Assembly (NCBI GenBank): GCA_036873755.1
Contig: JAVTVY010019616.1
Coordinates: forward strand, 1 to 64,000
Source: Hanleya hanleyi
Taxonomy: Eukaryota > Mollusca > Polyplacophora > Lepidopleurida > Hanleyidae
Reading direction: 5' to 3'
Length of the DNA stretch: 64,000 bases
Below the pieces are notes generated by a model, which was not told the DNA's origin, ran no database searches, and saw only the letters and a list, made by a program, of their open reading frames with translations. A program made the position numbers and the translations under genes. How positions within the stretch are numbered: position 1 is the first letter of the stretch; each line of letters opens with the position of its first letter. Below are positions 15,978 through 36,225 of the stretch, piece after piece.

Positions 15978-16023
15978 CTTGGTGGTTGACAGAGTATCCG
16001 ATGAAACGACCAGGCCGCTTCCC

Positions 16024-16031
16024 GTTTATAG
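16024..16031 (-). promoter_or_regulatory. TATA box of zinc-finger gene copy B
   Basis: CTATAAAC on the minus strand, about 47-54 bp before the ATG at 15977, inside a block conserved with the other copy (GATCTATTTTTAGCAC nearby on the plus strand). Confidence 0.6.
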
Positions 16032-16153
16032 TACGCTAGCTGGTGATCTATTTTTAGCACACTCAGTTCAACTACCTACCGGATGTAGGCTGTTTCTAAT
16101 CGTCATCGGGCAGGCCAGGATACCGTTGAGGAAACATATCCTCAGATAATTGT

Positions 16154-17680: not shown

Positions 17681-17889
17681 CCGGTGTGGCAGAGCTCCGA
17701 GAGCTCCACTCCACGCCCGGTGGTGGTGGTGGGAACTCCCGTGTGGCAGAGCTCTTGGATCGGAGCTCTTGGAGCTCAACGCCTGTGGAGCTCAGATCTC
17801 GGAAGTGACATTTGCATACGACCTCTGTGAGGTCACTTCCGCTTCCGTTCACGTGACCGGAACTGACCTTTGACCCCGGCGCGCAAAGG

Positions 17890-17981
17890 TTGCTGCATTC
17901 ATTGGCCTGCCGAACGGAGCTATCTCACCAGCCTACCTGACCAGCCTACCTGACCAGCCTGAACCACTCTGACGACAGGAG
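17890..17981. repeat. left terminal inverted repeat
   Basis: Starts TTGCTGCATTCATTG, then CCTGCCGAACGGAGCTATCT, then tandem (CCTACCTGACCAG) units, ending near CTCTGACGA. It matches the reverse complement of 35440-35531 with about four mismatches. Confidence 0.88.
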
Positions 17982-18009
17982 GAATCACCGGGACTTGCCT
18001 CACTGCACC

Positions 18010-21000: not shown

Positions 21001-21867
21001 CCACAGTCTGGAACTCACGCGCGTGTACCAAGTCTTACAGTACGTACCCAGCGCCTGTTTTGCGGGGAATGCCGACATCGTGACGTCTGCCCGTCGTCAA
21101 GGTGATCAAGATCCGAGTAAGGCCATCATCGGGGAATCGTGGAAATTGACGGGCAATGGCTATTATGGCAAAACGGTCACTAACCAAGATAAGCACGTGA
21201 ACGTGAACATCTGTACCACCCAACAGGCCCGCAAAAAGGTCAATTCTCCCCTGTTTCGGTCATCGATGACGACACGTATGAAATCACTTTAGCCAAAAAG
21301 ACTACCCTCCAAATTGGATGTATGGTATACCAGGTGGCCAAGCTCAGGATGCTCCAGTTTTTGTATGATTTCATGGGTGTGTATTTTAATCCATCAGACT
21401 GGCAACTCATGGAGATGGATACAGACTCTGCTTACATGGCCGTGTCTAATGCGGATTGGGAGTCCCTGGTCAAACCCGAGTTACGTGCACAGTATGGGGC
21501 GGAACGGGACCGGTGGCTACCTCCACGTGACCATTACCAGTACGACAAGCGGACGCCGGGTCTCTTCAAGTTGGAGTGGAGTGGGGATGCCATGATTGCA
21601 CTCTCCTCCAAGACGTATTACTGTTACGGTGGAGAACAAAATAAGTTTAGCTGCAAAGGGGTGAACCGGCGCGATCCGGCCATCGACAAAGCCTTGTACC
21701 TGAACGTGCTGCAAAGCCAGGCCAGTGCAAGTGGGACTAACAGAGGATTTCGGGTCGTGGACCACCAGATGCGGACGTACATCCAGAAACGAGACGCCTT
21801 CACCTTCTTCTACCCCAAGCGGAAAGTCCTTCCCGATGGCATCAGTACCACTTACCTGGACTTGTGA
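18010..21867 (+). pseudogene. PolB: protein-primed family B DNA polymerase of the Polinton, frame-broken
   Basis: Segments in successive frames cover a full-length Polinton PolB: about 18010-18520, 18520-19175, 19180-19370, 19370-21250 and 21250-21867. An ATG lies at 18010. The N-terminal domain (FHRHRRLLDLYNF, FKLNITFSYILRHK) is shared with the two zinc-finger genes. A C2H2-like CAQC-x12-H-x3-H motif comes next (near 18930). The exonuclease motifs are YDFEA (19122), FNSGRYDLN (19529) and YNNLD (about 19921). The polymerase motifs are DANALYL (20220), KLTGNGYYG (21143), MDTDS (21415) and SKTYY (21607). An HGxxCH-type YWHGHECH insert sits near 20500. Every catalytic motif is preserved, yet four frame changes split the gene. 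Either recent decay or sequence error is possible. Confidence 0.88.
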
Positions 21868-21924
21868 AACTATGACATTTGATATACTTTTCATGATATG
21901 AGTTAAAACTAGTACTGTAAAAAA

Positions 21925-21982
21925 GTCAGAAGGGTCGCCAGTCCTAAGTGCAGGGCGTGGGTTCGAATCCCACGCTCTGACA
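21925..21982 (+). ncRNA. tRNA-like sequence (58 nt) with Pol III-type terminator
   Basis: A six-base acceptor-like stem pairs GTCAGA (21925-21930) with TCTGAC (21976-21981). The T-arm is perfect: GTGGG-TTCGAAT-CCCAC at 21957-21973, which also forms a B-box (GGTTCGAATCC). TTTTT follows at 21984-21988, the usual Pol III stop. Only 26 bases separate stem and T-arm, too few for normal D and anticodon arms. It is therefore a truncated or unusual tRNA-derived sequence, closest by eye to tRNA-Leu or tRNA-Ser ends. It sits between the convergent PolB and virion blocks. Confidence 0.55.
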
Positions 21983-22039
21983 GTTTTTACACACCACCTG
22001 TATTCTATTGTACATATTCTATACATTCTTGTTCACTTG

Positions 22040-22086
22040 AATAAAAAAAGTCAAACACATCACTTGTGTTTTTATGAATTTTTAAT
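22040..22086. terminator. convergent polyadenylation signals
   Basis: AATAAA at 22040-22045 on the plus strand would serve PolB. ATTAAA on the minus strand (22081-22086) would serve the virion block ending at 22162. Confidence 0.5.
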
Positions 22087-22161
22087 TGAACATCAATGAA
22101 CGTCAGAACAACAACGTCATAACAAAAAACAATGAGAACACCGCGCGGTGCATTGAATCAA

Positions 22162-22638
22162 TTAAGACAACCAGAGAAATGGGGCATGCACATTAAAACG
22201 AGAGGCAGTCCAGTCGTATACGAGTACATCACGGTCTTCGGCTTGACAATAATCATAAAACATTTGTATGATCGTTTGCATAGAATGCCCTCTACTCCGG
22301 TGAGTGAGATAAAACACACAGTACTGTCCGCATACACTACTCAAGGGTCCTTGTAATCTTTTAGTATTCCAGCGCCACACTGTAGTAGATACGTCCATGA
22401 ACTTCACCAAATCGGGATGCAGGGGTGCAAGTCCGTAGGAATCAAAGTATTCGCCTTGGCCCAGGGTGTCCACGTACACAGCCACCCAATGTTCACCGGG
22501 TAGAGTACCAGGGTCTGCATTCAGGATGTAGGCTGCCGGGGTGGTTGAGATGGTGGGAAACACATTGCGTGGAAACACACCTCGAAAGGGTACCCGAGGA
22601 TCTCGCTGGAGTATGCCCATCAGCTGCTCTGTATCCAT
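22162..22638 (-). CDS. PRO: adenain-like cysteine protease (maturation protease)
   Basis: A 158-residue protein of the Ulp1/adenain family. In this numbering the catalytic residues are H50 (GEHWVAVYVD), D66 (YFDSYG) and C103 (SSVCGQYC), with Q96 as likely oxyanion-hole residue. All are present. The frame is open upstream to 22701, but the ATG at 22638 lies four bases after the capsid gene's stop and gives the usual family length, so I chose it. It is the last gene of the minus-strand virion block. Known role in relatives: cleaving capsid and core precursors during particle maturation. Confidence 0.9.
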   Translation of the reverse strand: MDTEQLMGILQRDPRVPFRGVFPRNVFPTISTTPAAYILNADPGTLPGEHWVAVYVDTLGQGEYFDSYGLAPLHPDLVKFMDVSTTVWRWNTKRLQGPLSSVCGQYCVFYLTHRSRGHSMQTIIQMFYDYCQAEDRDVLVYDWTASRFNVHAPFLWLS

Positions 22639-22642
22639 GACT

Positions 22643-23950
22643 CTAGCTGGCGTAGTCACACAGCACGTTTCTTTGCTGATCCACGGTGATGACGTTATCA
22701 AACTCGGCGTAGCAAATCACGTTAATGGTATGGGGTAGAGCTACCGAGAAACGCAGTTCCAACCGTAAGTTTCCTTTCTTGAGCAAGGCCAGTTGATGAT
22801 CGTGTTCCAAGGTTGGGGTGAGGTCGAAGGCGAACAAAGTGTACCCACGGCTAAAGTCTCGTCGAGTGATGGTATTTCCTTCGTCCTGATTGTTTTGTCC
22901 TGTGGCTGTAAACAGGTTCAGGTAGCTCCGCACATAGTGATGGTTACCAAAATCCGGTTGTAACGGACGGGCTGGGATTTGATGGCCGGCCACGTGCAGT
23001 GCCAAAAAGTTGACGTTGAAATGTTGAAAGTGGAACGGATTCTCATCCCACTGTCCATTGAAACTGGTGTTGGTGACACACGCCAGGGTAAGACGTTTAG
23101 GGAGATCCCCTAGAAATAAATTTTCACGATTGGCCATCATCGTACCTGCTGGCACAGAGAACACCTTGGTCTGTAAGCGTCGGATGGGGTACAGGGCTGG
23201 TTTTTTCGATAAGGCTTCCATGTGACTCACCAACACACCCTGTTGCAAATCCACCGTACGGACAAACAGGGCTGCATCATCTATGATGATCTTGTAATTG
23301 GGTGCATCTCCACCGGCCATCAAGGCGAAAGTGGGTGGGGAACGGATCAACTTGATCTTGATGGATACACCATTCATCATGTAGCGGTCTTGCAGGAACA
23401 GATCGGCGTGCAGTCGTCCCATCATATCGACGGACCGGCTACCGGTTGTAAACTGCCTGCGATGGCCGAACCCATTATTGGCAACGGTGACGGCATCCAT
23501 GGCTCCGGGTGTATCCCTGTAGTACAGCGAGGCTTGCAAGTGTGTTTTTTTGGCATCTTCTCCGTACGACAACAGCGTCTCGATGTAGGCTCGGTACGGG
23601 TACGTATTGGTGGACGTACTGATGAGTTTATCGTTCAGACTGATATCCACCTGTTGGAACAAGGAGTGCAGCCAAAGATTCACCGGGCCTACCACCGCAT
23701 CGTTCCCGATGGGGTCCCCGGCTCTGTCCACTATTTTGGTTTTCACGTACAAGTACGTGTGGGCTAAATCCAGGTAGGCCGTATCTTTGTTTTCAATGGT
23801 AAATTCCAGTGGTCCCGTGCCCGTCAGGTTAGCCAGGGGTCGATGTTCTACCCAACGTCCTTCGGCGACACTGGTCTGTGTGGGTGGAATAGTCCACAAA
23901 TCCAATTCACTGTTGGTAGACGGACACGACTCGGAGTGAATGAATGCCAT
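22643..23950 (-). CDS. MCP: major capsid protein, double jelly-roll (hexon-like)
   Basis: An intact 435-residue protein. It is the hexon-like Polinton capsid protein that invertebrate genome annotations often call F54H12.2-like. Recognisable pieces are PLEFTIENKDTAYLDL near residue 50, LHSLFQQVDISLNDKLIST near 95, YPYRAYIETLLSYG near 117, and a late HFNVNFLALHVAG region. It starts with an ATG that overlaps the upstream gene's stop as TAATG. Trimers would form the pseudo-hexameric capsomers. No frame damage is visible. Confidence 0.93.
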   Translation of the reverse strand: MAFIHSESCPSTNSELDLWTIPPTQTSVAEGRWVEHRPLANLTGTGPLEFTIENKDTAYLDLAHTYLYVKTKIVDRAGDPIGNDAVVGPVNLWLHSLFQQVDISLNDKLISTSTNTYPYRAYIETLLSYGEDAKKTHLQASLYYRDTPGAMDAVTVANNGFGHRRQFTTGSRSVDMMGRLHADLFLQDRYMMNGVSIKIKLIRSPPTFALMAGGDAPNYKIIIDDAALFVRTVDLQQGVLVSHMEALSKKPALYPIRRLQTKVFSVPAGTMMANRENLFLGDLPKRLTLACVTNTSFNGQWDENPFHFQHFNVNFLALHVAGHQIPARPLQPDFGNHHYVRSYLNLFTATGQNNQDEGNTITRRDFSRGYTLFAFDLTPTLEHDHQLALLKKGNLRLELRFSVALPHTINVICYAEFDNVITVDQQRNVLCDYAS

Positions 23951-24351
23951 TATGCGAAGATGTCTCTCTTACCCTTCTTCTTCCGGGGTGTGCGTCGTCG
24001 GTGTGTCGGTCGTCGAATGACTCTTCCCTGTGCCCGTGGTTGTCTTTTAAGGGCTTTGGCGATCAAGACGCTGCCTGCTTCTTGGGCCCGTCGTTTCAAG
24101 GCTTTTCGGGGTGCCGTTCCTCCCAAGACATCACCGGCCACGCGCAGTCCACTGCGTACCGCTTGTTTACCCATCGCTTTTACTCCCCGTGTCACCAAGG
24201 GCAAGAACGTTTTGACGATGCTGCCCAGTATGTTAGCCAACCCGTGACCTCGTTGCATGCGTGCACCGCTAAAGATGGGCAAGCTACCTCCCGTTTGTTT
24301 CTTGTAGTAGTCGGCATAGCTGGCCGTATGGCACTGGTAAGGCACGTGCAT
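23950..24351 (-). CDS. small basic virion protein (adenovirus pVI/pX-like)
   Basis: 133 residues. A GHGLANILGSIVKTFLPLV segment near residues 35-55 forms a probable amphipathic helix. A Gly/Ala/Lys region follows, then a strongly basic tail (KRQPRAQGRVIRRPTHRRR, then KKKGK). Placement between minor and major capsid genes, and TAATG overlaps at both ends, fit the Polinton gene thought to be a membrane-active or core protein of the particle. Function is inferred from position and composition. Confidence 0.72.
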   Translation of the reverse strand: MHVPYQCHTASYADYYKKQTGGSLPIFSGARMQRGHGLANILGSIVKTFLPLVTRGVKAMGKQAVRSGLRVAGDVLGGTAPRKALKRRAQEAGSVLIAKALKRQPRAQGRVIRRPTHRRRTPRKKKGKRDIFA

Positions 24352-25139
24352 TATACGAAGTGAGGAGAACGTGCTTGTCGGAAATGAAGTGTCAGCACCA
24401 CTTTCCCTCGTTCGAATGCGACCGGGTGTCCCGTGTCATCTCTTATATCCACCGTGATCGTGTTGATATCGGTGTGTCGTACGGGCAGGTAGAGTATGTG
24501 GTTGAAACTCTGGGTGACTTGATCGCCATACTTCTTTTTAATGGGCACCACCCGTAACAGAGGTGTGTTCACATCGCCCACAATATGGCTGTCCACTGCG
24601 TCCGAGTAGACGTAGAGTCCGTACATACCCACTTTCATATCCATCACAACGTCACCGTTGTCGGTGGTGGGACCCGCGTAGATGTCGTAAGGGAGACCTA
24701 ACATTTGCTGTAGCCTAGGACTGAGTTCCACACCCACGTTGGGGCTGAGCAGGATACAGGCCTTGTCGTTGTGTGCGTTGACATCGAAGATCACGTGATT
24801 CTTGAAGGGATAGGCTTTGACGGGTCTTGAACTATTCGTCACCACCCGTAGAGAATTATAATTCAACAATGTGGTCAGACCCTCTATGAACGCCTTGGGG
24901 GTATCGTATTGGCCTTCGGGGAGAGTCAGTCGGTTTATTTTGCCTTCGTAGGTCACCTCGTACCATACTTCTTTGCCTCGCACGTTGTACCACGAGTAAG
25001 GGTATTGAATATCCACCAGTCCACATTCCCACCGTCCAGGTAAATGCAACGGTTGCGGTAATTGGGTCACGTACTTGGCCAAGGTGTTGTCAGGAAACAC
25101 ATCGAGCGAACTGTTACTGGGCAACGTGAGGTAAAACAT
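24351..25139 (-). CDS. mCP: minor capsid (penton) protein, single jelly-roll
   Basis: 262 residues starting MFYLTLPSNSSLDVFPDN, which is the conserved start of Polinton penton proteins; WECGLVDIQYPYSWYNV follows near residue 40. The frame is open upstream to 25166, but only through a GTG codon, so the ATG at 25139 is preferred. It would occupy the five-fold vertices. The stop overlaps the next gene's ATG (TAATG). Confidence 0.88.
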   Translation of the reverse strand: MFYLTLPSNSSLDVFPDNTLAKYVTQLPQPLHLPGRWECGLVDIQYPYSWYNVRGKEVWYEVTYEGKINRLTLPEGQYDTPKAFIEGLTTLLNYNSLRVVTNSSRPVKAYPFKNHVIFDVNAHNDKACILLSPNVGVELSPRLQQMLGLPYDIYAGPTTDNGDVVMDMKVGMYGLYVYSDAVDSHIVGDVNTPLLRVVPIKKKYGDQVTQSFNHILYLPVRHTDINTITVDIRDDTGHPVAFERGKVVLTLHFRQARSPHFV

Positions 25140-25172
25140 GACGACTGAACTTTCTTGCTTCTGCACTTGGCT

Positions 25173-25964
25173 TTAATAGGGCTCCCAGGCCTTGGGCGGA
25201 TGACCTCGGCGTCGTGATCGTCGCGGTGACTTGCTTTGTATCAAAGCTCTCGAGCGCTGGAGTCTCTTTACCGGGGGTGGTGTTTTAAAGGGTGGAAAAG
25301 AAGATACCCGTCGTTGTGGTGTTTTGGGGGGTGACTCCGGTTCTCAAGAAGGGGGTGGTGGTGGTGGTGGTGGTGGTGGTCTACTCGGCGATTGCTGGGT
25401 CCGCTGCATAAAGGCCCAACGGTTAGGATTCCCCACCAATTCTTGAGGGGTGTGTGTGCCTTTCAACCCCTGAGCAAAGGCTTCCCAGCCCGGTGGATTA
25501 GAGTATTTGCGAGAGCGCACCGTATCGTTGATCAAATCGGTGATATGAGACCCCGGCACCATTCGGTTTCGAATAAGCAGTTTACCCTGATCGCTCCAAC
25601 CCATATCGGGATTCTGTTTCACCCGGTCCAACAATAAACGAGCCTTGGTCTTGAATGCCTTAGGGACACTGGCCAACACTTCCTCTTCCAGCTGAGGTGA
25701 TGATGGTGGTGTGGGTGCTGGCGCTGCTGGTAGTGGTGCTGGTGGTGTACTTCCCCTATATTGATCCATAAACGTCTTGTACCGGTTCAGCGTCTGATGG
25801 TAGAGTTGAATTTTCTCGTGATCGGGTAGTCGACGTTGGAGTATACTATTCATCTCTTCGTCGAGAGACTGGAGTTGTTGCACCGTGGCAGGAACGGGAT
25901 AGGGTGATTGCAAACTCTGTAACAGTCGAGGTTCGACCAGCATCATTTTTTTCGTATGTTCCAT
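25173..25964 (-). CDS. conserved Polinton protein with Pro-rich region, in-frame TGA
   Basis: The open frame from 25964 to 25344 encodes 206 residues: an N-terminal helical region (LQSLDEEMNSILQRRLPDHE, then YHQTLNRYKTFMDQY), a Pro/Ala linker, a conserved domain (DQGKLLIRNRMVPGSHITDL, then NPPGWEAFAQGLKG, ELVGNPNRWAFM) and a polyproline tract. A TGA (25344-25346) follows the tract. The same frame then stays open for 56 more codons with a basic RS-rich tail to a TAA at 25173-25175, just before the penton gene. The domain recurs in animal Polintons; its function is unknown. Confidence 0.7.
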
Positions 25965-25968
25965 GACG

Positions 25969-26307
25969 TTAGCGTCCCAAGATGGATCCTACTAACGGTC
26001 CCAGTACGGTGGCGGCTAAGGGTGCGAGGAGTGCCCCGAGAAATCCACCTCGCTGTAACACCTGTTTCTTTTTCTTTAAACTTCCCGTCTTCTTCACCAG
26101 CGTTCGGAGACCCGTCTTGTGCCGTTGCAATTTCCCTTTCTGCAGGGGACTGAGAGGAACATTCCCTTTTAACACATTATGAGCGACTTCACACAAACAC
26201 CGTAACAATTCTGCGTCCGCGCCGCGCACCAGGGCCCGGGCCACCTCCGGTGGCGCGCTGCGTAATACGCGGAGGGCCGGCGCGTGCTTCCGTATCCGTG
26301 CAGACAT
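25969..26307 (-). CDS. conserved small Polinton protein with C-terminal hydrophobic segment
   Basis: 112 residues. The N-terminal part (RIRKHAPALRVLRSAPPEVA, then ELLRCLCEVAHNVLKGNVPL, LQKGKLQRHKTGLRTL) is a recurrent Polinton family. A lysine-rich KKKKQ segment and a Gly/Leu hydrophobic tail (GGFLGALLAPLAATVLGPLV) follow. The gene sits four bases from its neighbour in the virion block. The hydrophobic end suggests membrane or capsid-interior association; the role is not known. Confidence 0.75.
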   Translation of the reverse strand: MSARIRKHAPALRVLRSAPPEVARALVRGADAELLRCLCEVAHNVLKGNVPLSPLQKGKLQRHKTGLRTLVKKTGSLKKKKQVLQRGGFLGALLAPLAATVLGPLVGSILGR

Positions 26308-26346
26308 GATGAGGAAGTGAATGCTAGAGGGTTGTGTCTTCTTCTT

Positions 26347-26961
26347 TTATTTGGGTGTGTACACCGTCTGGAACTCTCCGGGAAAAATGTGGGTGCGCAA
26401 TCGAAGTACGGAGGGTGTTCCTTGTTTCAAGTCGATGAGCAGATACCCGTGGGCCCCTTGGGTGGCATCTTCAAAGGCTTTCCGCACAAAGGCCGTGTTT
26501 TTAGGGTACATCTGTTTCGCCAGATGCATAATTTGTGATGCGTCTCTGGGGTTTTTGAACAAGACCACATACTGAGCATTCAAACTGATGTTCCTGTGTT
26601 CTTTGTTCTTACTGAAGAGATTCTGGACGATGTAGATGATGCTCAACCGACGATGATGGCTCCCTTTCGTAAAGAGACGCGTCACCCGACTGTCCGTTTC
26701 GGTCATCAGATCGTCTACCACGACCAACGTGTCTTCTGGGGTATCCTCTGGGGGTAATCCTTCCACCAAGGTGAGTCCAGGGATGCGTGCCAGTTCCTCG
26801 TACGCAGGCTGCCAAGCTCCATAACACCACAGGATGCGAGCCACGGGTGGTGAAATGAGGGCTGACCCGTGTTGGATGAGCCGTTGAACGAAGTGTGTTT
26901 TTCCCGACCCGGTCGGCCCAGCGATGAGACACGTGAAGGGATGCTGCCACCGAGGATCCAT
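26347..26961 (-). CDS. ATP: genome-packaging ATPase (FtsK/HerA, A32-like)
   Basis: 204 residues. Walker A is AGPTGSGKT at residues 14-22 and Walker B is LVVVDDL at 79-85, followed by a SIIYIVQN sensor-type strand. This compact form is the Polinton/PRD1-lineage packaging ATPase. It is intact, starts with an ATG, and begins six bases after the membrane-protein gene ends. It would pump the DNA into the capsid. Confidence 0.9.
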   Translation of the reverse strand: MDPRWQHPFTCLIAGPTGSGKTHFVQRLIQHGSALISPPVARILWCYGAWQPAYEELARIPGLTLVEGLPPEDTPEDTLVVVDDLMTETDSRVTRLFTKGSHHRRLSIIYIVQNLFSKNKEHRNISLNAQYVVLFKNPRDASQIMHLAKQMYPKNTAFVRKAFEDATQGAHGYLLIDLKQGTPSVLRLRTHIFPGEFQTVYTPK

Positions 26962-26967
26962 AGGGTT

Positions 26968-27528
26968 TTATTTGGTGATTTGCGCCCAGCGTTCAGAGGC
27001 CCACCACCGTTGTCGTGGATCCCAACGGGGGTCGTAGTCGTGCGGGTACCGTTGCCGTGGTAAACGTGGTACTAGTCCCACTCTAGGTGTTAGCGTCGTG
27101 GTGGTGGTGGTGGGAGTCCTATGTTGCCGTGGTTTTGCCCTGGGTGCTGTGGAAGATGATGCCGGTGGTTCGCTTGTGAGGGTAGGACTAGGCAGGTACA
27201 CGGGTGGACCCCGGGTGAAGTTCCGCAGAGGTGGCGGAGGACTAGACCGCGTAGTGGGCTGGGTTGTAGAACGTGGTGATCTGGTAATGTTCCGCAGCGT
27301 AGTGGGAGAGGAGGTGGTGGTGGTGGTGGTGGTGTTGGGTGATTGCACTTGACGTTGGGGGGGGGCAGGTCTTGGACGAATGGAAGGTAGGTTGAAACAG
27401 GATATCAGGTACGCCAAATCGTAGAAGACTCCTCCAAATAAGGTACCCAGAAGCACTAGTAGACACACGACGGTACCGACTTGTCCTTTTCGAGTCCGCA
27501 GCAATAAGGGCAGATGTGCACTATCCAT
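26968..27528 (-). CDS. mucin-like single-pass membrane protein
   Basis: 186 residues. A short basic N terminus is followed by one hydrophobic segment (about 17-43, VGTVVCLLVLLGTLFGGVFY core). The remaining 140 residues are Thr/Pro/Ser-rich with TTTTTTT runs and several N-x-S/T sites, ending in a charged Trp-rich tail. It is the first gene of the virion block after its own TATA box. A virion or envelope-like surface protein is possible; there is no sequence match that I recognise. Confidence 0.55.
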   Translation of the reverse strand: MDSAHLPLLLRTRKGQVGTVVCLLVLLGTLFGGVFYDLAYLISCFNLPSIRPRPAPPQRQVQSPNTTTTTTTSSPTTLRNITRSPRSTTQPTTRSSPPPPLRNFTRGPPVYLPSPTLTSEPPASSSTAPRAKPRQHRTPTTTTTTLTPRVGLVPRLPRQRYPHDYDPRWDPRQRWWASERWAQITK

Positions 27529-27570
27529 GGTACAACCCTAGACTGAAGGCTGTAGGCGATGTGAGGTAGA

Positions 27571-27578
27571 ATTTATAG
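27571..27578 (-). promoter_or_regulatory. TATA box of the virion gene block, overlapping the integrase stop codon
   Basis: CTATAAAT on the minus strand lies 43 bp before the ATG at 27528. The integrase ends CTA-TAA, so its stop codon is part of this TATA box. Confidence 0.6.
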
Positions 27579-28628
27579 CCGGTTCATGTCACGGGCTGAG
27601 ACCCAGGAATTAAACGAACTGGGCCAACCTTGCCATTTGACGAAATGATAGGGGATGCCACGTCGACGTTCCGTTTTCAAAATCTTTTCCACCGTGTAGT
27701 AGTCTTTCCGTGTTTTTACCACCGGTTGTAATTCTGCCTCGTAAAACGTGCCTTGCAGTGTTTCTCCTTGTAGATCTTCCAGTTGATAGACGTGTGGGTG
27801 TCGAGGGTTATGGCGAACGATGACAAAGTGCTCGTCACCCCAGTTGGGCAAGTAACTTTTCTCAAATTGCCCTTTGACTTTACTGATCCGTACCACATCC
27901 CCGCGTTTGTAACGGGGTGACGTGAGTGGACTTGGTTCTATCGAGTACAGCGTACGGCGCACTTGATGTTCTTTGCATTCCGTCACATCGAGGGGAGCCC
28001 GTTGGATACTGCGATGATAGGCTCGATAGTACCCTTGGACCAGTTGAGGTAGCACATCGATGTACCGTCGGGTGTTTTTGGCGGTGAAATACTTGTACAT
28101 CCGTCCTTTGAAGGTTCGATTGAATCGTTCCACCACAGAGGCTTTGGTCTCGTTGTACGTATGGAAGAAAAACACCTTCTGTTTCTTAAGAAAGGCTTGA
28201 AAGTGGCGGTTGAGAAATTCTGTGCCTTCATCCGTTTGCAAATAGATGGGTTTGCGTCCCGTCTTGAAAATCTGCTGGAACGCTCGTACCAGATTCTCTC
28301 CTGTTTTGGTACGGATGGGTAGCACCCACGCGTACTTGGATAAAATATCGATACAGGTCAACATGTACCGATGTCCATCATTGTGGGCAGCAAATCGACT
28401 CATATCGACCAAATCGGCCTGCCATTGTGCGTCTACACCTCCCACGATGACTCGGTTACGGCGAAAATGTCGTCGGGCTGTTCGATGTAAGCTATAAGTG
28501 TCTTCGGTTTTTAACCATTCTCGAACTTCAGTTCGACTGATGCCTTGGGAATGTGCAGCTCGAGCGAGCGCTCCTACAGCGCTATAAGCGGCTGGACTGG
28601 TTGGGTTGTAATACAAATCTGTTAACAC
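27573..28628 (-). CDS. INT: retrovirus-type integrase with C-terminal chromodomain
   Basis: 351 residues of open frame. The catalytic triad is D72 (QADLVDM), D133 (QTDEGTEF) and E167 (SVVERFN), with the normal D-D(33)-E spacing. An SH3-like region (YKRGDVVRISKVKG) follows near 250, then a chromodomain over about 310-351 (YYTVEKILKTER, HFVKWQGWP, SWVSARDM). The frame has no ATG before its core: the listed start is a GTG, and the frame runs open upstream to a TGA near 28752. A Lys/Arg-rich frame starting at an ATG (28749) overlaps in another phase. The N terminus therefore comes by frameshift, splicing or has been lost. Confidence 0.88.
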   Translation of the reverse strand: MLTDLYYNPTSPAAYSAVGALARAAHSQGISRTEVREWLKTEDTYSLHRTARRHFRRNRVIVGGVDAQWQADLVDMSRFAAHNDGHRYMLTCIDILSKYAWVLPIRTKTGENLVRAFQQIFKTGRKPIYLQTDEGTEFLNRHFQAFLKKQKVFFFHTYNETKASVVERFNRTFKGRMYKYFTAKNTRRYIDVLPQLVQGYYRAYHRSIQRAPLDVTECKEHQVRRTLYSIEPSPLTSPRYKRGDVVRISKVKGQFEKSYLPNWGDEHFVIVRHNPRHPHVYQLEDLQGETLQGTFYEAELQPVVKTRKDYYTVEKILKTERRRGIPYHFVKWQGWPSSFNSWVSARDMNRL

Positions 28629-28782
28629 CTTGTTCAGTCTTACGCCACGTGGATTCCTGCCGACCTGCCTTGCGGGTACTCCACTGGCTGCCCTTTCGGA
28701 TTCCCTTTCGGGTCCCCCTCTGGGTTGCGCTGTTGTGTGTTCGCTTCATGAGTAGACACTGACACTCTAGCCTGTGTGCACC

Positions 28783-29371
28783 CTATAGATATAGTACTTC
28801 ATCGACAATGGGGACTACTTTTTCCAAGGCCGTCCATAGATCAGGGTCCAGGGTAAAACCACCTTCGTTCAGACAGAGGAGTCGAGCAAAAAAGGCACCG
28901 CGGAAAATGTAGACGTCGTCACACAGGTGAATGCTATCACCGTCGAGGTCGCCCAACAACACCCGTTTCAAGGTAGTCCAGCCTTCCGGTGACAAAGAGA
29001 CGCGCGCTTTGGGTTCAGACGTACATCAACACCTACGTCCGCTATCGATGAGGTCCACTCGTTTGGGGTACAACAATAAGGTGCAGCCAGGTGTAAGAGT
29101 CCGGGTAGCCACAGAGTTCGCGTCGGGGTGCAGTAAGTCGTGGACGTCGGGGATATCATCTCTACCACTTCGTAGGTAGACTCCCACTCCCACGTGCATG
29201 AAATCGACTTCGGGCTCTTTTCCCTGCAGTCCACCCTGCTAGGGTTAAACATAGCTTCACCTCTCGGGGTTGTTCTTCGATGAGCTGCAGGTGATTGTCA
29301 TGGACGATCAGGGTGACGTGGGTGGTCAGTTGGAACAACGCAAGCTCTCCATCTGCTCCGTGCGCTCCCAT
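28783..29371 (-). pseudogene. accessory Polinton gene, broken by one frame change and one stop
   Basis: The ATG at 29371 lies about 37 bp after a TATATAT box (29408-29414). One frame runs to 29162; the coding character then continues in another frame from about 29240 to 28783, interrupted by a TGA near 29026. The last part contains ARVSLSPEGWTTLKRVL, a pattern like the end of a PC4-type domain (G-I-S-L-x-x-E-x-W-x-x-L), but the rest does not support that firmly. The intact protein would be about 195 residues. Function is unknown. Confidence 0.45.
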
Positions 29372-29407
29372 GGTGGTGAATGACAAAACACCGACTAGGG
29401 AGGCCTG

Positions 29408-29414
29408 TATATAT
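29408..29414 (-). promoter_or_regulatory. TATA-like box of the broken accessory gene
   Basis: ATATATA on the minus strand, about 37 bp before the ATG at 29371. Confidence 0.45.
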
Positions 29415-29529
29415 CGCTGTGCAGGGGCTTATACTACACCCTGTCAGTGCCTAGTGGACTAACCTATACACCCTGCAACATAAGGGGTTGGGTAATTTTT
29501 TATACTATAATGTACCCCTATGAGTATAA

Positions 29530-29830
29530 TTAACTCCTAGTCCGTAGCCGTACACGTTACAGTTTTTTCATTTGTTCGTGTCTCTCTATCCTAATCCGTA
29601 CCCGTACACGTTCTGGTTTTATTTTTCCGGCTCCCTTCACCCTTCGTGAAAGTCCGTGATCACTCGGTAGTTTCATGTTAAATTAACCCCTAGTCCGTAG
29701 CCGTACACGTTATAGTTTAATTTTTTTCGTGCCTCTCTATGCTAGTCCGTACCCGTATACGTTATAGTTTTTATTTTCCATGCCCCCACCTTCGTCAATG
29801 TCCGTGATCATTCGGGGTGTAATGTTATAG
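29530..29830. repeat. four-copy iterated motif inside a duplicated 150-bp block
   Basis: The motif T(A)ATCCGTA(G/C)CCGTA(C/T)ACGTT occurs near 29538, 29592, 29693 and 29746. The whole 150-bp block is repeated (TCCGTGATCA-TCGG recurs near 29656 and 29800). It lies between divergent genes, so a regulatory or origin role is possible. Confidence 0.7.
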
Positions 29831-29924
29831 AGATACGAATTGATTTAACCTAGGAATTTGCTATACCAATTTCGTGCAAAAAGACGGGATTGTAAGTTAA
29901 CCCAGGAGGCATGACCCGCGCCTT

Positions 29925-30041
29925 ATTGGGCCAATCAGCGACCCGTATATCAACCAATGGCGAGGCCGGAGACAGAACCAATGAAAGAGGTTTGCGCCGT
30001 TTAAACAGCCAATGAAAATCTACTCTATATTCAGTATAAAA
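29925..30041 (+). promoter_or_regulatory. promoter with four CCAAT boxes and a TATA box
   Basis: GGCCAATCAG (about 29930), AACCAATGG (29955), AACCAATGA (29977) and GCCAATGA (30008) are followed by TATAAAA at 30035-30041. Arrays of CCAAT upstream of TATA are a feature of histone gene promoters. Confidence 0.65.
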
Positions 30042-30108
30042 CCCAGGGACGCGTGGGGAAAAGCTTCATTCAAACCATATTTCTGAAGCTGTGAAGACCG
30101 TAATCAAG

Positions 30109-30528
30109 ATGAATAGAGTTGCAAAGATGAGTACGACCAAGGGAGCGGGAAGAGAGAAGAGACAGAGGGAGAAACTAGCCAGGAGTGTGAAAGCATTTTG
30201 GATGACCGAAATCCAAAGATGGACACGATCGAACACCAATTTTACGCCGCTGTCCTGGGCGGCGTTGTACTACAGTGTGACGAGAGCCCTCACAACATTC
30301 ACGGGGGAAGACTGGATATCGGCACTGAGAGACGCTCTCAACGAAGAACATCTCCAGAGAGAACAACAACAACAGATCCAACAACGCCAGCCGGAATTCG
30401 CAAATTTAAACGAATTACCGAGCATACCAACGGCGACATTCCTGGACGATCTACCATCGGTACCAGACACGGATACTGACGATGAACAACAACAACCTGG
30501 CCGGTACTTTTCCGTCAGTTTGGAGTAG
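30109..30528 (+). CDS. small protein with basic N terminus and acidic C terminus; histone-like gene architecture
   Basis: 139 residues from the ATG at 30109 (the frame extends to a GTG at 30091). The N terminus is basic (GAGREKRQREKLARSVKAF). A helical centre (MTEIQRWTRSNTNFTPLSWA, then YYSVTRALTTF, DWISALRDALNEEH) is followed by Gln runs and an acidic tail (DTDTDDEQQQ). The EIQRW-x-RSN segment is reminiscent of the histone H3 alpha-N helix, but the similarity is too weak to claim. The gene has a CCAAT/TATA promoter and is followed 50 bp later by a canonical histone 3' stem-loop. A conventional AATAAA (30547) is also present. I do not recognise a function. Confidence 0.62.
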   Translation: MNRVAKMSTTKGAGREKRQREKLARSVKAFWMTEIQRWTRSNTNFTPLSWAALYYSVTRALTTFTGEDWISALRDALNEEHLQREQQQQIQQRQPEFANLNELPSIPTATFLDDLPSVPDTDTDDEQQQPGRYFSVSLE

Positions 30529-30577
30529 ACAGGCAAACTCCCCCTGAATAAAACAGGGTAAACAAATTGACCTTAAC

Positions 30578-30593
30578 GGCCCTTTTCAGGGCC
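30578..30593 (+). terminator. histone-type 3' stem-loop
   Basis: GGCCCTTTTCAGGGCC (six-base stem, TTTC loop), preceded by AAC and followed by ACCCA. This matches the metazoan replication-dependent histone 3' end consensus. A purine-rich ACGAAAGGGG, like the U7 snRNA-binding element, lies 11 bases downstream (30605-30614). Confidence 0.8.
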
Positions 30594-30663
30594 ACCCAAA
30601 TCTTACGAAAGGGGACCTCTAACTTGGCACATTCAATTCAAATCAGGTCCTACATTGGTGAAT

Positions 30664-31085
30664 CTCCTCTCCTCTATATTCTATGATTACCAAACTCCAA
30701 CCCCCAAAAAAATCTGCCATCAAAGGTCCTTTTCAGGGCCAACCCCTAGCCTTCCAAACAGCACTTATAACAATTACCCCTAGACCCTACCCATGCAAAT
30801 CTCCTCTCCTCTATGATTACCAATCTCCCACACCTCACAACAACAATTTTTTTTTTAAACTCGGGTTTTTCCGGGACTACTCGGTAGTTCTCAATCTCTT
30901 CTCCTCTCTGATTACCAATCTCCCACACCTCACAACAACAAAAATTCACACTCGCCTTTTTCCGGGACTACTCGGTAGTTCTCAATCTCCTCTCCTCTAT
31001 GATTACCAATCTCCCACACCTCCTGACAACAACAACAACAATTTTTACACTCGGCTTTTTCCGGCACTATTCGGTATATTATTAC
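30664..31085. repeat. tandem repeat of about 90-95 bp, with a second histone-type stem-loop
   Basis: Units share CTCCTCTCCTCTATGATTAC, CAATCTCCCACACCTC, CAACAACAA and TTTTCCGGGACTACTCGGTA. Copies lie at about 30800, 30895 and 30985, with a partial one at 30664. GGTCCTTTTCAGGGCC at 30725-30740 is another histone-type hairpin on the plus strand. The 201-residue open frame across the array looks like a repeat by-product. Confidence 0.75.
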
Positions 31086-31267
31086 CGTACATTCATACTA
31101 ATAGTGTTTTTTTTAATTTTACCTGGGCGCTGTTAGTAGGAAGCTCCCATTTACTAAGTGTTAATTACCTATTGTTACCTAGGTGTGTGTGTGTGCATGT
31201 GCAGGAGTTGGTGTTTTTTTTGGTGCTTTTAATTAGAAGTTTGCTCTTTCGAGTATATATAATTGGG

Positions 31268-31283
31268 GGTCCTCATAAGGACC
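31268..31283 (-). terminator. histone-type 3' stem-loop, variant
   Basis: On the minus strand, GGTCCTTATGAGGACC has a perfect six-base stem, with AAC before and CCCAA after. CGAAAGAGC (31243-31251) follows about 16 bases later, like a U7-binding element. The loop (TATG) departs from the usual TTTC. It lies about 200 bp downstream of the minus-strand gene at 31485-32089. Confidence 0.5.
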
Positions 31284-31484
31284 GTTAGGAAGGTGTAAGG
31301 GAATTACACCGATCGGAACAGGTGTTCTCGCCTCTGGGTACACACGGGACATTTCAGCGCGACGAGTGTACACGCTATGGGCTTGTAAGTGGGCGTAGGC
31401 ACTGGTCTTCCTGCATGTCTGTGAATACAGCGAATACATAACGCTTGGTGTCCACATGGAAATATAGCGTATTTGGCGTAGAGA

Positions 31485-32089
31485 CTACTGCATTGGTAAA
31501 TACTGTGCCGCTCCCCATGTTGTGTCTCGCTCCAGTCTTCTTATTTCGGTACAGTAGTACTCAAGATATCGCTGCTGTAAAAGACCCATCTGTTCTTTTT
31601 CTTGTTCTTTTTTTTCTCTTTCAAGTTCTTGGTCTTCTTCGAACTCATCTTGTAGGAGTTGAGCAATCTGTTCGTCGTCGGTAGGATAGACGTAGGGACT
31701 CACGTAGGGACTATTGTCCACACTCCATCGATGAATTCCCCGGTTGCTTCTTGGTCTTGGTCTTGGTCTTGATGTAGTTTGAACACATCTTGTAGGACTC
31801 GTTCAAACCGTTCGAGTTGGAGGGTACTATCAGGCCGTACGTCATTGGCGGTGACATCTCCATCCGCTGCCTCTTCTTCTCCTTCTTCATCGTCTTCAAT
31901 ATCGATGAATTGACCCGTGGCATGGTGAAGATACTGCCGCTTTTGTTGTGAAACTGGGGTGAAAGTCTCGCTGCCCTCTACCGGCTGGTCTTCTTGTTCA
32001 TCATCTTTCCATAGCTCTTCCAATATGTTGTCAAGCCACGCCTCGTTAATAATATTGTGCACTCCATCAATATCCATGTGTTGAGCCAT
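31485..32089 (-). CDS. acidic coiled-coil accessory protein, frame change or intron inside
   Basis: From the ATG at 32089 one frame runs to 31700. It encodes a short helical start (MDIDGVHNIINEAWLDNILE), acidic stretches (DIEDDEEGEEEAADGD) and a DQDQDQ run. The second frame (31721-31485) continues with an acidic coiled-coil (LLQDEFEEDQELEREKKEQE). The junction carries GTGAGT near 31701, which could be a splice donor; a one-base frame change is equally possible. The ATG and everything upstream lie in the large palindrome shared with the divergent RING gene. The product is not recognised. Confidence 0.5.
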
Positions 32090-33100
32090 GATGTAGTTCA
32101 AAATGAATGGATAGCAGACGACACTGCGCGCTTCTTATAGTATAACCGTAGAGCGCCCGTATGAGGGCGCGGACGTCATCGAAATCTTCACAGTGAAACC
32201 ATGGTGCCTGCTCAGGCCCGCTGAAATTTTGTGTTTCTTTTCCATCTTCAAACCGGTCTCATTTTGCAATAAATGCGAGTTGACGTGTAAAACTTATTTA
32301 AACTTGAACTTTGGGAACTTATAGTGTATCGCTGAAAAATTCAGAAGGCTGGCGGCAGGCTAAAACTATATTTTTAATCATTTTGTCGATTTTAGACCCG
32401 TATGGTTATGGGTGTGGTTGTGTGGAAAACCCGGTAAATTTGAAATAAATCGGCTTACCTCCGTAAAAACACTTTAGGTGTGTTCCTGACATCCTTATAA
32501 TGTCACCCTGAAAATTTGAGCAGGTTTAACGATGAAAAAGTATGAATTTTTGTCCTATCACTCTTGCTACGGTAACACAGCACTATACAATATGGAGCCG
32601 AATGTGTGTACAGCTATGCGTGTCAATGGCTGTGTTACCGTAGCAAGAGTATTATGACAAAAATTCCTACTTTTCCTTCGTTAAACTCGCTCAAATTTTC
32701 AGGGTGACATTATACGGAGTTTTTACGGAGGTAAGCCGATTTATTTCAAATTTACCGGGTTTTCCACACAACCACACCCATAACCATACGGGTCTAAAAT
32801 CGACAAAATGATTAAAAATATAGTTTTAGCCTGCCGCCAGCCTTCTGATTTTTTCAGCGATACACTATAAGTTCCCAAAGTTCAAGTTTAAATAAGTTTT
32901 ACACGAAGCATTTATTGCAAAATGAGACCGGTTTGAAGATGGAAAAGAAACACAAAATTTCAGCGGGCCTGAGCAGGTACAATGGTTTCACTGTGAAGAT
33001 TTCGATGACGTCCGCGCCCTCATACGGGCGCTCTACGGTTATACTATAAAAAGCGCGCAGTGTCTCGTCAGCTATCCATTCATTCAACTGCATCATGGCT
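32084..33100. repeat. 1-kb palindrome (divergent promoter region)
   Basis: Left arm 32084-32581 and right arm 32629-33100 are inverted copies separated by 47 bp. They match closely throughout: ATAACCGTAGAGCGCCCGTA, TTCACAGTGAAACCAT, TTGGGAACTTATAGTGTATC and GCTACGGTAACACAGC all have inverted partners. The left arm has one extra segment of about 25 bp near 32470-32500. Each arm ends exactly at a gene start (CATCATGGCT). Each has a TATA box: CTATAAGAAG on minus at 32131-32140 and TATAAAAA on plus at 33045-33052. Confidence 0.92.
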
Positions 33101-33770
33101 AATCCTAGTAGACGGGCACTATTCAACGCAATGAACACGGGACCACAAGATCCTAGAGAACATAGAGAACGGATTCGCTCGAACGGAGAAGACAACGAAC
33201 ATGTTACAATCATTACGAGCTTGCAGCGTGTTCATGAAGCTCATATTGCTGAAGCTTTGAGGATGAGCGGTGCACAACAAGATAGAGAAATAAGGGACGC
33301 TGTGCAGGGAGAAGATGATGATGATGATGAAGCAACAGACGATGAAGATGTACCAGCGGTGGAGTGGATAAACAGTAGTAGACCCCCAGCAACTACAGCG
33401 GCGACTCAGGCGGCTACCACAACGACGGCTACCACAACGACCGCTACCGCAACAGGAATGACAACACCCTTACAAGAGATCAGCCACCTGAACCAAACAG
33501 CTTGACGAATTAGAAGATGAAAAGTCTAAATTACGCCTACAACTGGCTAGGGAACAGAAGAGATCCACCTGCACCGTGTGTCAAGACGATGAAACGACGT
33601 ACGCCTTTTTCCCTTGTGGTCACCTGTGCCTATGTGGTGTATGCTTGCTAAGCTTAACATGCATAGCGGGTTCGTGCCAGTGCGCAGAGACAGAGGAGCT
33701 TCATTTGAAGATGCGATGCCCTGTGTGTCGGGGATGTGTATCAGGCGTGAAAAAAATATTCCGCCCGTAA
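33095..33770 (+). pseudogene. RING-finger accessory protein, frame-broken
   Basis: The first segment (33095-33505) starts with an ATG 43 bp after TATAAAAA. It encodes a charged N-terminal region, an acidic DDDDDEATDDED run and a Thr/Ala-rich linker. The frame changes near 33495-33505. The second segment to 33770 encodes a short coiled coil (ELEDEKSKLRLQLAREQ) and a RING finger: CTVC, FFPCGHLCLCGVC and CPVCR, as in IAP-type C3HC4 RINGs but with about 25 extra residues before CPVC. RINGs of this kind are ubiquitin ligases, often in cell-death control. One base-level break separates the halves, so this is a damaged gene, a sequencing error or a recoded one. Confidence 0.68.
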
Positions 33771-33797
33771 CAGTGTGATACCGCTGTTCTTTTCAAA

Positions 33798-33813
33798 GGT
33801 CCTTTTTAGGGCC
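33798..33813 (+). terminator. histone-type 3' stem-loop after the RING gene
   Basis: GGTCCTTTTTAGGGCC has a six-base stem with one G-T pair and a TTTT loop, with CAAA before and ACCTA after. CCCGAAAGGGGGG (33825-33837) follows about 12 bases later like a U7-binding element. It begins 28 bases past the stop codon. Confidence 0.72.
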
Positions 33814-33934
33814 ACCTAATTACACCCGAAAGGGGGGAAATTTTCTAACTAAAAGCACAAAAACACCAGCTCCCACACCAATATCCCCTTTACATAGAGT
33901 GAACACTAACACACATTTGAATTTCTAATATTTT

Positions 33935-33940
33935 TATTAA
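33935..33940 (-). terminator. polyadenylation signal for the right-end minus-strand genes
   Basis: AATAAA on the minus strand, downstream of the PC4-like frame ending at 34104. Confidence 0.45.
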
Positions 33941-34103
33941 CACAGTAGAATGAACATAAGGTCTTCACCACAGTAGACTCTTGGTGTTGAATTTTTAATA
34001 CAATTATACGCTATCAAGGCGCTTAAATGAACATAGAATGAACATAGAATGTAGGAATACGGTGATGTCTGAATGTTTATGCAACAAGACTTGTGTGAAA
34101 TGT

Positions 34104-34775
34104 TCAATATTTATGCAACAAGACTTGTTTGAACTCGTCATTGTCTTTCTGCCCCTGGTGCACGTATATGAAGGTGGCAATCTGTTCACGTGGAATTCTG
34201 GGTGGACAGGCAGCTTGCAATGCCTCGGCAATTTGCACCTCGTTAACGGCCTGTAGTCCCTCAGTCATCAGCGCGTCTGATGGTATACTATTGTCCATAC
34301 ACGTATGCGTGTTGAAGAGACCGTTCTTGTTCCCACAGCCTGCACATTGCTGGATACGCAAGTGTCGAATGCGGGGTCTGAGATGATCCAGGAATGTGTC
34401 GATGTACTTCTTATAAATATACTGAGTCACCTGGTCAGACAGGACTTCATGAATTTCACCTGTGAGACTCTCCAGCTTCCGCCACGCAGGTATTTGCAGG
34501 GTGACGCCCTGAGGTAAAGGAATACGCTTTTCTTCCCTCAACTTCCATTTACGAATATGCACGAGCAGCATGTTGTTGAACATAGAACAGGTGAGAAAGA
34601 TGTCGTCACCCACATAAAATTTCGCTTCGTCGCTCCCCTGGTGATCAATGACCGCATCGACGGCGTAATAAATGGCCTGTACTCTTATCCAGGTGTCCAA
34701 CGTCAAGGCGATATGCTTAGGTGGTTTGTCGTCCCAGGCCGGTGCGTTAAAATGCACCTTCCTCTTCTTTGACAC
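34104..34775 (-). CDS. PC4-like protein, frame without its own ATG
   Basis: 223 codons. Residues about 53-104 fit the PC4 (Sub1) single-stranded-DNA-binding coactivator pattern: FYVGDDIFLTCSMFNNML, then VHIRKW and PQGVTLQIPAWRKL. A later C144-x2-C147...H157-x-C159 cluster could bind zinc. The frame begins right after a TGA with a GTG codon (34775); the first internal ATG, at residue 65, would cut the PC4 core. The frame overlaps the CARD gene's end by 29 bp in the +1 phase. It is probably expressed as the back half of a CARD fusion by splicing or frameshift, or it has lost its start. Confidence 0.55.
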   Translation of the reverse strand: MSKKRKVHFNAPAWDDKPPKHIALTLDTWIRVQAIYYAVDAVIDHQGSDEAKFYVGDDIFLTCSMFNNMLLVHIRKWKLREEKRIPLPQGVTLQIPAWRKLESLTGEIHEVLSDQVTQYIYKKYIDTFLDHLRPRIRHLRIQQCAGCGNKNGLFNTHTCMDNSIPSDALMTEGLQAVNEVQIAEALQAACPPRIPREQIATFIYVHQGQKDNDEFKQVLLHKY

Positions 34776-35349
34776 TCACAGTTAAATAGGGAGAGAGCTC
34801 CCAAGTGTTCGTCTGGGCCGCCTGGTAGGTCTGCTGGATAATGTCATTGATCTCCTGCACAGACATAGGAAGTAGCACCTCTTCCTTCGCTTGCTCAGGC
34901 ACTTGCTGGGGCACTGGCTGAAGCACTTGCTGAGGTATTTCTAAAGGTGTTAGTCGGGGTCGTTTGGTAGGTGGACCGGGTTTGGCAGGTAGACCGGACT
35001 CTTGGTGCGTACGTTTGGTAGCTGTACGCCCTTCGGCGATGTCCATGTCCATGACTAAGATATTATCTTCTGAATCCTGGGCTTGAAGTAGATCAGCTAT
35101 TCCTTCATTTCCCGTCTTCTTCAGCACCTCCACGAAGGCTTGAAATGCTATGGGGCCACGGCGCAGTAGATCGTCGATGAGGGCTCTGTTTTGTCGCGAG
35201 GTGGTCTTCTCCGCCATGATATCTTCGACACCGTGTTTAAGGATTATGTTTTCCACCATAAGCAGATCACATATGTCAGCCACATGCTGCATCTCATCAA
35301 CGAGGCGAATACGGTGCCGTAGAAGCTTAGCTCGGTGGCATGAGTCCAT
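34747..35349 (-). CDS. CARD-domain protein
   Basis: A 200-residue frame from an ATG. Residues 5-89 form a full-length death-fold CARD: HRAKLLRHRIRLVDEM, then ADICDLLMVENIIL, VEDIMAEKTTSRQN, LLRRGPIAFQAFVEVLKK, ending IADLL. The (R)RGP-x-AFQAF signature is that of caspase-2/9, CED-3 and adaptor CARDs. The C-terminal half holds a basic PPTKRPRL (possible nuclear signal), a Pro/Gln-rich stretch and a VKEEE end. No caspase domain follows. CARDs bind other CARDs in apoptosome or inflammasome-like signalling. The gene lies next to the right TIR and inside the element. Role as decoy, adaptor or death inhibitor is inferred. Confidence 0.82.
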   Translation of the reverse strand: MDSCHRAKLLRHRIRLVDEMQHVADICDLLMVENIILKHGVEDIMAEKTTSRQNRALIDDLLRRGPIAFQAFVEVLKKTGNEGIADLLQAQDSEDNILVMDMDIAEGRTATKRTHQESGLPAKPGPPTKRPRLTPLEIPQQVLQPVPQQVPEQAKEEVLLPMSVQEINDIIQQTYQAAQTNTWELSPYLTVSVKEEEGAF

Positions 35350-35439
35350 GACTGTTGGCTCAGGCTGGTCAGGTCAGTAGCTGCTATGGTGAGATAGACT
35401 GGTGAGGCAGGCTCAGGCTGGTGAGGCTCAGGCAAGTAG

Positions 35440-35531
35440 CTCCTATCGTCAGAGTGGTTCAGGCTGGTCAGGAAGGCTGGTCAGGTAGGCTGGTGAGATA
35501 GCTCCGTTCGGCAGGTCAATGAATGCAGCAA
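35440..35531. repeat. right terminal inverted repeat
   Basis: Inverted match to 17890-17981, ending AATGAATGCAGCAA. The sequence inside it (35355-35440) continues the same CAGGCTGGTGAGG-type short repeats toward the CARD gene. Confidence 0.88.
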
Positions 35532-35559
35532 TACCCCTAAAAATTTCCACTTTTATACG

Positions 35560-36225
35560 TTTTTTCGTGACATTCGGGTCTTTTCGGTAACCTCCGTGTG
35601 TCTTCGGTCACCTCCGTGTCTTTTCGGTCACCTCCGTGACTCTTCGGTGATGACATTCGGGTGTTTTCGGTAACCTCCGTGTCTCTTCGGTCACCTCCGT
35701 GTCTTTTCGCTCACGTCCGTGACTCTTCGGTGATGACATTCGGGTCTTTTCGGTGACCGCCGTGCCTCTTCGGTCACCTCCGTGTCTTTTCGGTCACCTC
35801 CGTAACATCTTCACGGACCTCACGGAACTCCCCGTGACTCTTCGGTGATCTCCGTGTCTCTTCGCACACCTCCGTCACATCTTCACGGACCTCACCGAAA
35901 AGACACGGAGGTGACCGAAGACACACGGAGATGAACGACAATTGTGGGAAAAACCCACAGACAAGTCAGTACATCTCCTATCATGTTCCCACGGACCTCA
36001 CCGAAGAAACACGGAGGTGAACGACATCGTGGGAAAAACCCCAGTACATGCTCCTCTCACCGAAAAGACACTGAGATGAACGACATTGAGTCCCCACAGA
36101 CAGGTCTGTACACATCCTATCATGTTCACAGGTCACGCCCCATTCACCCAGACCGGAAGTGACGTCATACGGCAAGGTCACGCTCCATTCACCCAGACCG
36201 GAAGTGATGTCATACGGGACTGGTG
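35560..36225. repeat. tandem and inverted short repeats right of the element
   Basis: Positions 35575-35880 hold many copies of a 20-bp unit, TCGGTCACCTCCGTGTCTTT. Inverted copies follow at 35890-36090 (AAGACACGGAGGTGACCGAA). Positions 36128-36217 hold a 44-bp unit twice (CCATTCACCCAGACCGGAAG, TGACGTCATACGG). Confidence 0.9.

Follow-up and report, generated by a model that had tools for sequence, protein, structure and literature searches.

The window analysed here is a stretch of 64,000 nucleotides (nt) from the polyplacophoran mollusc Hanleya hanleyi (contig JAVTVY010019616.1, positions 1 to 64,000), and it contains a Polinton-type element whose accessory genes, designated a, b, c, d and e, are grouped at its right end. 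Genes a, b and c are each followed by a stem-loop and a downstream element of the kind that characterizes replication-dependent histone genes. To our knowledge, such 3' ends are treated as nearly exclusive to these histone genes. The element, the three genes and their ends are located as follows.

17890..35531: Polinton-type element, bounded by inverted repeats at 17890-17981 and 35440-35531
30109..30528, plus strand: gene a, 139 amino acids, no Pfam family above cut-off
30578..30614, plus strand: 3' end of gene a, with stem-loop GGCCCTTTTCAGGGCC (30578-30593), ACCCA and downstream element CGAAAGGGG (30606-30614)
30725..30740, plus strand: second hairpin after gene a, GGTCCTTTTCAGGGCC, then AACCCC, without GAAAG element
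31243..31283, minus strand: 3' end of gene b, with stem-loop GGTCCTTATGAGGACC (31283-31268) and downstream element CGAAAGAGC (31251-31243)
31304..32089, minus strand: gene b, RING protein, RING match under cut-off, frame broken in the window copy
33095..33770, plus strand: gene c, RING protein, zf-C3HC4_3 at 34.3 bits, frame broken in the window copy
33798..33835, plus strand: 3' end of gene c, with stem-loop GGTCCTTTTTAGGGCC (33798-33813), ACCTA and downstream element CGAAAGGGG (33827-33835)

With regard to the placement of these ends, the hairpin begins 50 nt past the stop in gene a, 21 nt in gene b and 28 nt in gene c, and the GAAAGRG element lies downstream in all three. Hairpin and downstream element are common to the three genes, the remainder of their 3' regions being dissimilar. 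None of the 12 other genes checked has a hairpin of its own after the stop, and the weak match after gene d is the gene c hairpin read in antisense. A first-pass annotation of this sequence had reported four hairpins, all of which are present. It had likened them to histone 3' ends, which holds for the ends of a, b and c; the hairpin at 30725-30740, having no downstream element, does not amount to a complete histone-type end. The minus-strand variant that it had noted at 31268 does carry a downstream element and terminates a second RING gene, gene b, whose frame is broken. The hairpin at 30725-30740 lies about 200 nt past gene a and is followed by AACCCCTAGCCTTCC.

The ends resemble the replication-dependent histone 3' end (Rfam family Histone3, RF00032) in their stem of six pairs with a loop of four bases, their (A)ACC flank and their GAAAGRG element, as well as in their location tens of nucleotides past the stop of intronless genes. 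They differ from it in belonging to non-histone genes of a virus-like element and in the extra AATAAA hairpin upstream of the gene a end, and the stems of gene b in the window and of gene a in a divergent Polinton, C43150, deviate from the usual histone stem. The covariance-model search with Histone3, which the first-pass annotation had proposed, gives 35.2 bits at the end of gene a (30573-30618), above the cut-off of 34 bits.

Chance hairpins were ruled out by shuffles of the window and by a genome-wide reversed control. The exact motif GGYYCTTTTNAGRRCCACC occurs twice in the window, with one match at the end of gene c, versus a mean of 0.00 in 100 dinucleotide shuffles, and a relaxed motif (at most two mismatches, no ACC) occurs five times, versus a shuffle mean of 1.37, with five or more in 4 of 100 shuffles. 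In the host genome, the single genome searched (2.48 Gb, 52,793 contigs), the exact motif is found at 2393 places and the reversed pattern at none. In the first 100 of these places listed, the two variable pairs never form a C-A mismatch, and 15 pairs of places are divergent and spaced 2.1-3.1 kb apart, as are genes b and c. Among the viral contigs of IMG/VR, the full motif gave two matches, neither followed by GAAAG, and a half-motif with GAAAG gave 39, none with more than four of six stem pairs. A search of IMG/VR with the capsid protein of the element gave no relative, and the host genome was searched for copies instead.

The host's own histone genes provide the closest comparison. The ends of its H1, H3, H2B, H2A and H4 genes comprise GGCCCTTTTCAGGGCC, then ACCCA (H1) or AACCA, then CGAAAGAG, which is followed by CTTCTA in four of the five; the Polinton ends show the same order of stem-loop, (A)ACC and (C)GAAAGRG. 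With Histone3, the ends of four host core histone genes reach 30.8-32.9 bits, under both gene a and the cut-off. Short stretches after further histone-like frames contain a hairpin by loose criteria in seven of eight cases, the remaining one (L156) having none. The host also encodes SLBP: two pieces of its RNA-binding domain (PF15247) lie on contig C17340 and score 52.7 and 35.8 bits.

In the genome-wide Histone3 search, 75 of 360,901 candidates were scored and 74 matches were listed. Of those listed, 38 are Polinton b or c genes and 34 belong to a non-histone tandem family, Q (29 read, and 5 unread on the same contig), the other two being a histone gene (H1) and a site after a DDE transposase fragment. 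The core histones score slightly lower and were found separately. Copy numbers are at least 150 for gene a and at least 97 for the capsid gene.

Conservation in related Polintons, on which the first-pass annotation had made its reading depend, is found for genes a and b within this one genome. The gene a sample comprises the window and 40 of the 150 listed copies, taken by protein similarity (69-97% identity). The hairpin is kept in 40 of these 41 (33 fully paired and 7 with one mismatch; it is absent in L140), and 37 of the 40 copies with hairpin also keep CGAAAG. The second hairpin, of the 30725 type, is present in 37 of 41 copies and fully paired in 23. A fully paired hairpin follows gene b in all 17 loci that were fetched for gene c and reach the gene b end, two of which stop short of the downstream element. 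The 40 gene a copies, the 17 gene b ends, gene b of C43150 and the window were selected independently of the hairpin; the gene c ends and most b loci were selected by the Histone3 search itself, and gene a of C43150 was located via its own downstream element.

C43150 also keeps hairpin and downstream element after both genes, with stems that have changed yet remain paired. Its gene b is 40% identical and ends in GGTTTT-TTTA-AAAACC with CCGAAAGGG (33.0 bits); the end of its gene a reads TGTCTT-TTTC-AAGACA with CCGAAAGAGG. The latter gene is taken as the homologue of gene a on the basis of position and motifs (tblastn E 0.42; 33% identity in a two-sequence alignment). C43150 is the strongest case for covariation. 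Across 18 Polinton ends, 99.1% of the cells are paired and the covariation score, which is inflated by the relatedness of the sequences, as is that of the larger set, is 0.319 versus 0.159 after shuffling (reached in 0 of 500 shuffles). Double changes occur at four of the six pairs (reached by 2 of 500), six further pair types are seen (53 of 500), and the second G-C pair and the loop-closing U-A pair are invariant. With host and family Q sequences included (35 ends), 99.5% of the cells are paired, covariation is 0.125 versus 0.073 (0 of 500), and double changes occur at two pairs (28 of 500).

Three further features concern the promoters and the possible polyadenylation of these genes.

29850..30108, plus strand: promoter of gene a, with five CCAAT boxes, one ATTGG and a TATA box
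30542..30558, plus strand: hairpin with AATAAAA loop and stem CCCTG/CAGGG, a possible poly(A) signal of gene a
32120..33064: inverted duplication with the divergent promoters of genes b and c, arms of 157, 187 and 90 nt, 90-99% complementary

Three to five CCAAT boxes and a TATA box precede gene a in all 17 copies examined. Upstream of the host histone genes, CCAAT was found twice in H4, twice in H3 and once, reversed, in H2A, and H2B has none in 117 nt. The duplication at 32120-33064 is near-perfect, with about 430 nt per side, the promoters of b and c being almost identical.

The presence of these cis-signals, their likeness to those of the host, their upkeep across copies and the SLBP gene of the host suggest that the element may borrow the DNA-replication-linked message machinery of its host. 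Genes a, b and c very probably undergo SLBP/U7-type processing like replication-dependent histone mRNAs. Their hairpins would be bound by the host SLBP, and their GAAAGRG elements would base-pair with the U7 small nuclear ribonucleoprotein (snRNP). Cleavage by the histone cleavage complex, a few bases past the hairpin, would yield a capped and intronless mRNA that lacks a poly(A) tail. The messages would be made, exported, translated and stable mainly in S phase, which is when the RING proteins and protein a would be of greatest use to an integrating DNA element. The cleavage, the missing tail and the S-phase expression are what we infer from sequence.

Several observations weigh against SLBP/U7-type processing. 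Histone3 scores fall below the cut-off for gene c (23.5 bits), gene b (19.9 bits) and the 30725 hairpin (18.2 bits), which in the window gene a alone exceeds; as two chance-like matches in IMG/VR viral contigs reach 21.9 and 21.3 bits, the minus-strand and 30725 hairpins would lack support on Rfam score alone. The gene a end of C43150 has no Histone3 match at all. Among near copies, hairpin conservation is no higher than that of the flanks; as these copies share the entire 3' region at a similar level, conservation alone does not single out the hairpin. CCAAT boxes are absent from genes b and c. The U7 small nuclear RNA was not located in the host genome: an Rfam search, in which 65 of 530,699 candidates were scored, gave two weak matches (E 0.89), a first pattern gave 10 matches versus 11 for its reversed control, a second gave 19 versus 16, and none of five places inspected (three from the first pattern, two from Rfam) showed a convincing U7 hairpin. 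Three candidates of the second pattern were also inspected and rejected, as they are the antisense of gene a-type ends. In addition, an AATAAA lies 19 nt past the stop of gene a and 25 nt ahead of its histone-type hairpin. It precedes the hairpin in 39 of 41 gene a copies, 34 of which have the exact 17-mer, and C43150 has a counterpart with stem CGTG/CACG around AATAAAAA.

This recurrence makes a second, polyadenylated end possible, and gene a may have two alternative ends, one of them polyadenylated at the AATAAA hairpin. A human precedent exists in H2AC18, the message of which is reported to combine overlapping signals for the polyadenylation and the histone-type machinery (PMC9756948); its poly(A) signal overlaps with the downstream element, whereas that of gene a precedes the stem-loop in a hairpin of its own. 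These points favour an explanation by which polyadenylation is the main route for these genes and the histone-type signals play a minor or conditional part, with gene a ending at the AATAAA hairpin, a dual end like that of H2AC18. Nevertheless, no AATAAA or ATTAAA is found within 400 nt after the stop of gene c, gene b has none ahead of its hairpin, and paired stems are maintained in the histone-type signals, so we consider predominant polyadenylation unlikely. The hairpins might also have another role, such as a decoy soaking up SLBP or U7, or a signal at the DNA level, for which the high copy number of the motif and the second hairpin after gene a, devoid of a downstream element, can be cited. 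That role is very improbable given that the hairpins lie directly past the stops, in the same three genes and in sense orientation, and are accompanied by a downstream element of the host type.

With respect to functionless relics inherited by copying, the broken frames of b and c in the window copy and the whole 3' regions common to near copies point in this direction. In other copies, gene b is intact (a frame of 326 amino acids in L051), as is gene c (259 amino acids in L048). For 18 intact gene c frames, the ratio of nonsynonymous to synonymous rates (dN/dS) is 0.31-0.47, with a median of 0.37 (115 of 153 pairs, with dS 0.1-1.5); judged by this ratio, gene c is under purifying selection. 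This selection, the stems that have changed yet are paired, both between genes and in the divergent element, and the fact that a, b and c have hairpin and downstream element in common in otherwise differing 3' regions all speak against relics, an explanation that is already disfavoured and that we regard as extremely improbable.

SLBP/U7-type processing of genes a, b and c could be part of a wider arrangement, which we propose tentatively and hold to be rather doubtful as a whole. In a lineage of virus-like elements, a set of accessory genes that probably manipulate the host would have been moved onto the cycle of replication-dependent histone mRNAs, with messages largely limited to S phase or to the fast cell cycles of the germline and early embryo; gene a would switch to its polyadenylated end outside S phase, and the PC4-like gene of the element would tune this switch. 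The last step is proposed because cellular PC4 was found among the U7-bound proteins and is reported to interact with the U7 snRNP and to reduce histone 3' processing (PMC6062981). That the PC4-like protein might act on the element's own ends is a guess.

The first-pass annotation was aware of no such ends in Polintons, and the literature searched, which covered few subscription papers, likewise describes no histone-type ends for genes of Polintons or other viruses. In this respect the element differs from the Polinton/Maverick elements and adintoviruses described in that literature, which it resembles in its integrase with chromodomain, ATPase, adenovirus-type protease, capsid protein and inverted repeats. 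If SLBP/U7-type processing is confirmed, the histone 3'-end pathway could be captured by a mobile virus-like element on several non-histone genes, which would provide a natural test of the sequence features sufficient for such processing and suggest how an integrating DNA element times its expression to S phase. Genes with histone-type ends may be overlooked in RNA sequencing of poly(A)-selected samples.

Two other kinds of locus with histone-type stem-loops were observed in the host genome. Family Q encodes a non-histone protein of 106-107 amino acids and is repeated in tandem, with a unit length of about 1.6 or 4.4 kb (L053, L056, L067, L070, L084 and others; e.g. L084:5527-5850, minus strand). 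Most copies have a histone-type stem-loop with GAAAGAG downstream, and none of the 56 homologues in a protein search has an informative name. At L086:2577-3050, a DDE transposase fragment (DDE_Tnp_4) is followed 33 nt on by a perfect histone-type stem-loop with ACC, without GAAAG.

Apart from genes a, b and c, the right end of the element contains two accessory genes.

34104..34775, minus strand: gene d, PC4-like domain, PC4 at 24.8 bits in the window (cut-off 25)
34747..35349, minus strand: gene e, CARD domain (E 3e-15)

The PC4-like domain of gene d reaches 27.6 bits in L048. Gene d has no histone-type end of its own, and an AATAAA lies 166 nt past its stop. In L048 (2288-3046, minus strand), a single reading frame spans the final part of the CARD gene and the PC4 domain. 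The RING protein of gene c had no homologues in the protein search.

The minus-strand block of the element encodes an integrase with chromodomain (rve 37.1 bits and chromodomain 28.8 bits, both above the Pfam cut-off), as well as an ATPase and an adenovirus-type protease, the Pfam matches of which are under cut-off only. The capsid protein has 1872 homologues in the protein search, one of which (P0028) contains PF21738, and relatives bear names from Littorina, Liolophura and Apostichopus. The polymerase region is putatively assigned to 18010-21867 from motifs and position; with regard to a protein-primed DNA polymerase B, the pieces at 18010-21867 have no Pfam polymerase match. Within the presumed polymerase, 19556-21289 contains a Vsr-like nuclease stretch (E 9e-4). 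The inverted-repeat arms are 92 nt each and 97% complementary, and no target-site duplication is evident beside them (17884-17889 and 35532-35537). Outside the left repeat, zinc-finger frames at 15053-17128 (minus strand) resemble the start of the polymerase region (18010-18555) and likely belong to a second element. Directly beyond the right inverted repeat, at 35575-35941, lies an array of TCGGTCACCTCCGTG-type repeats.

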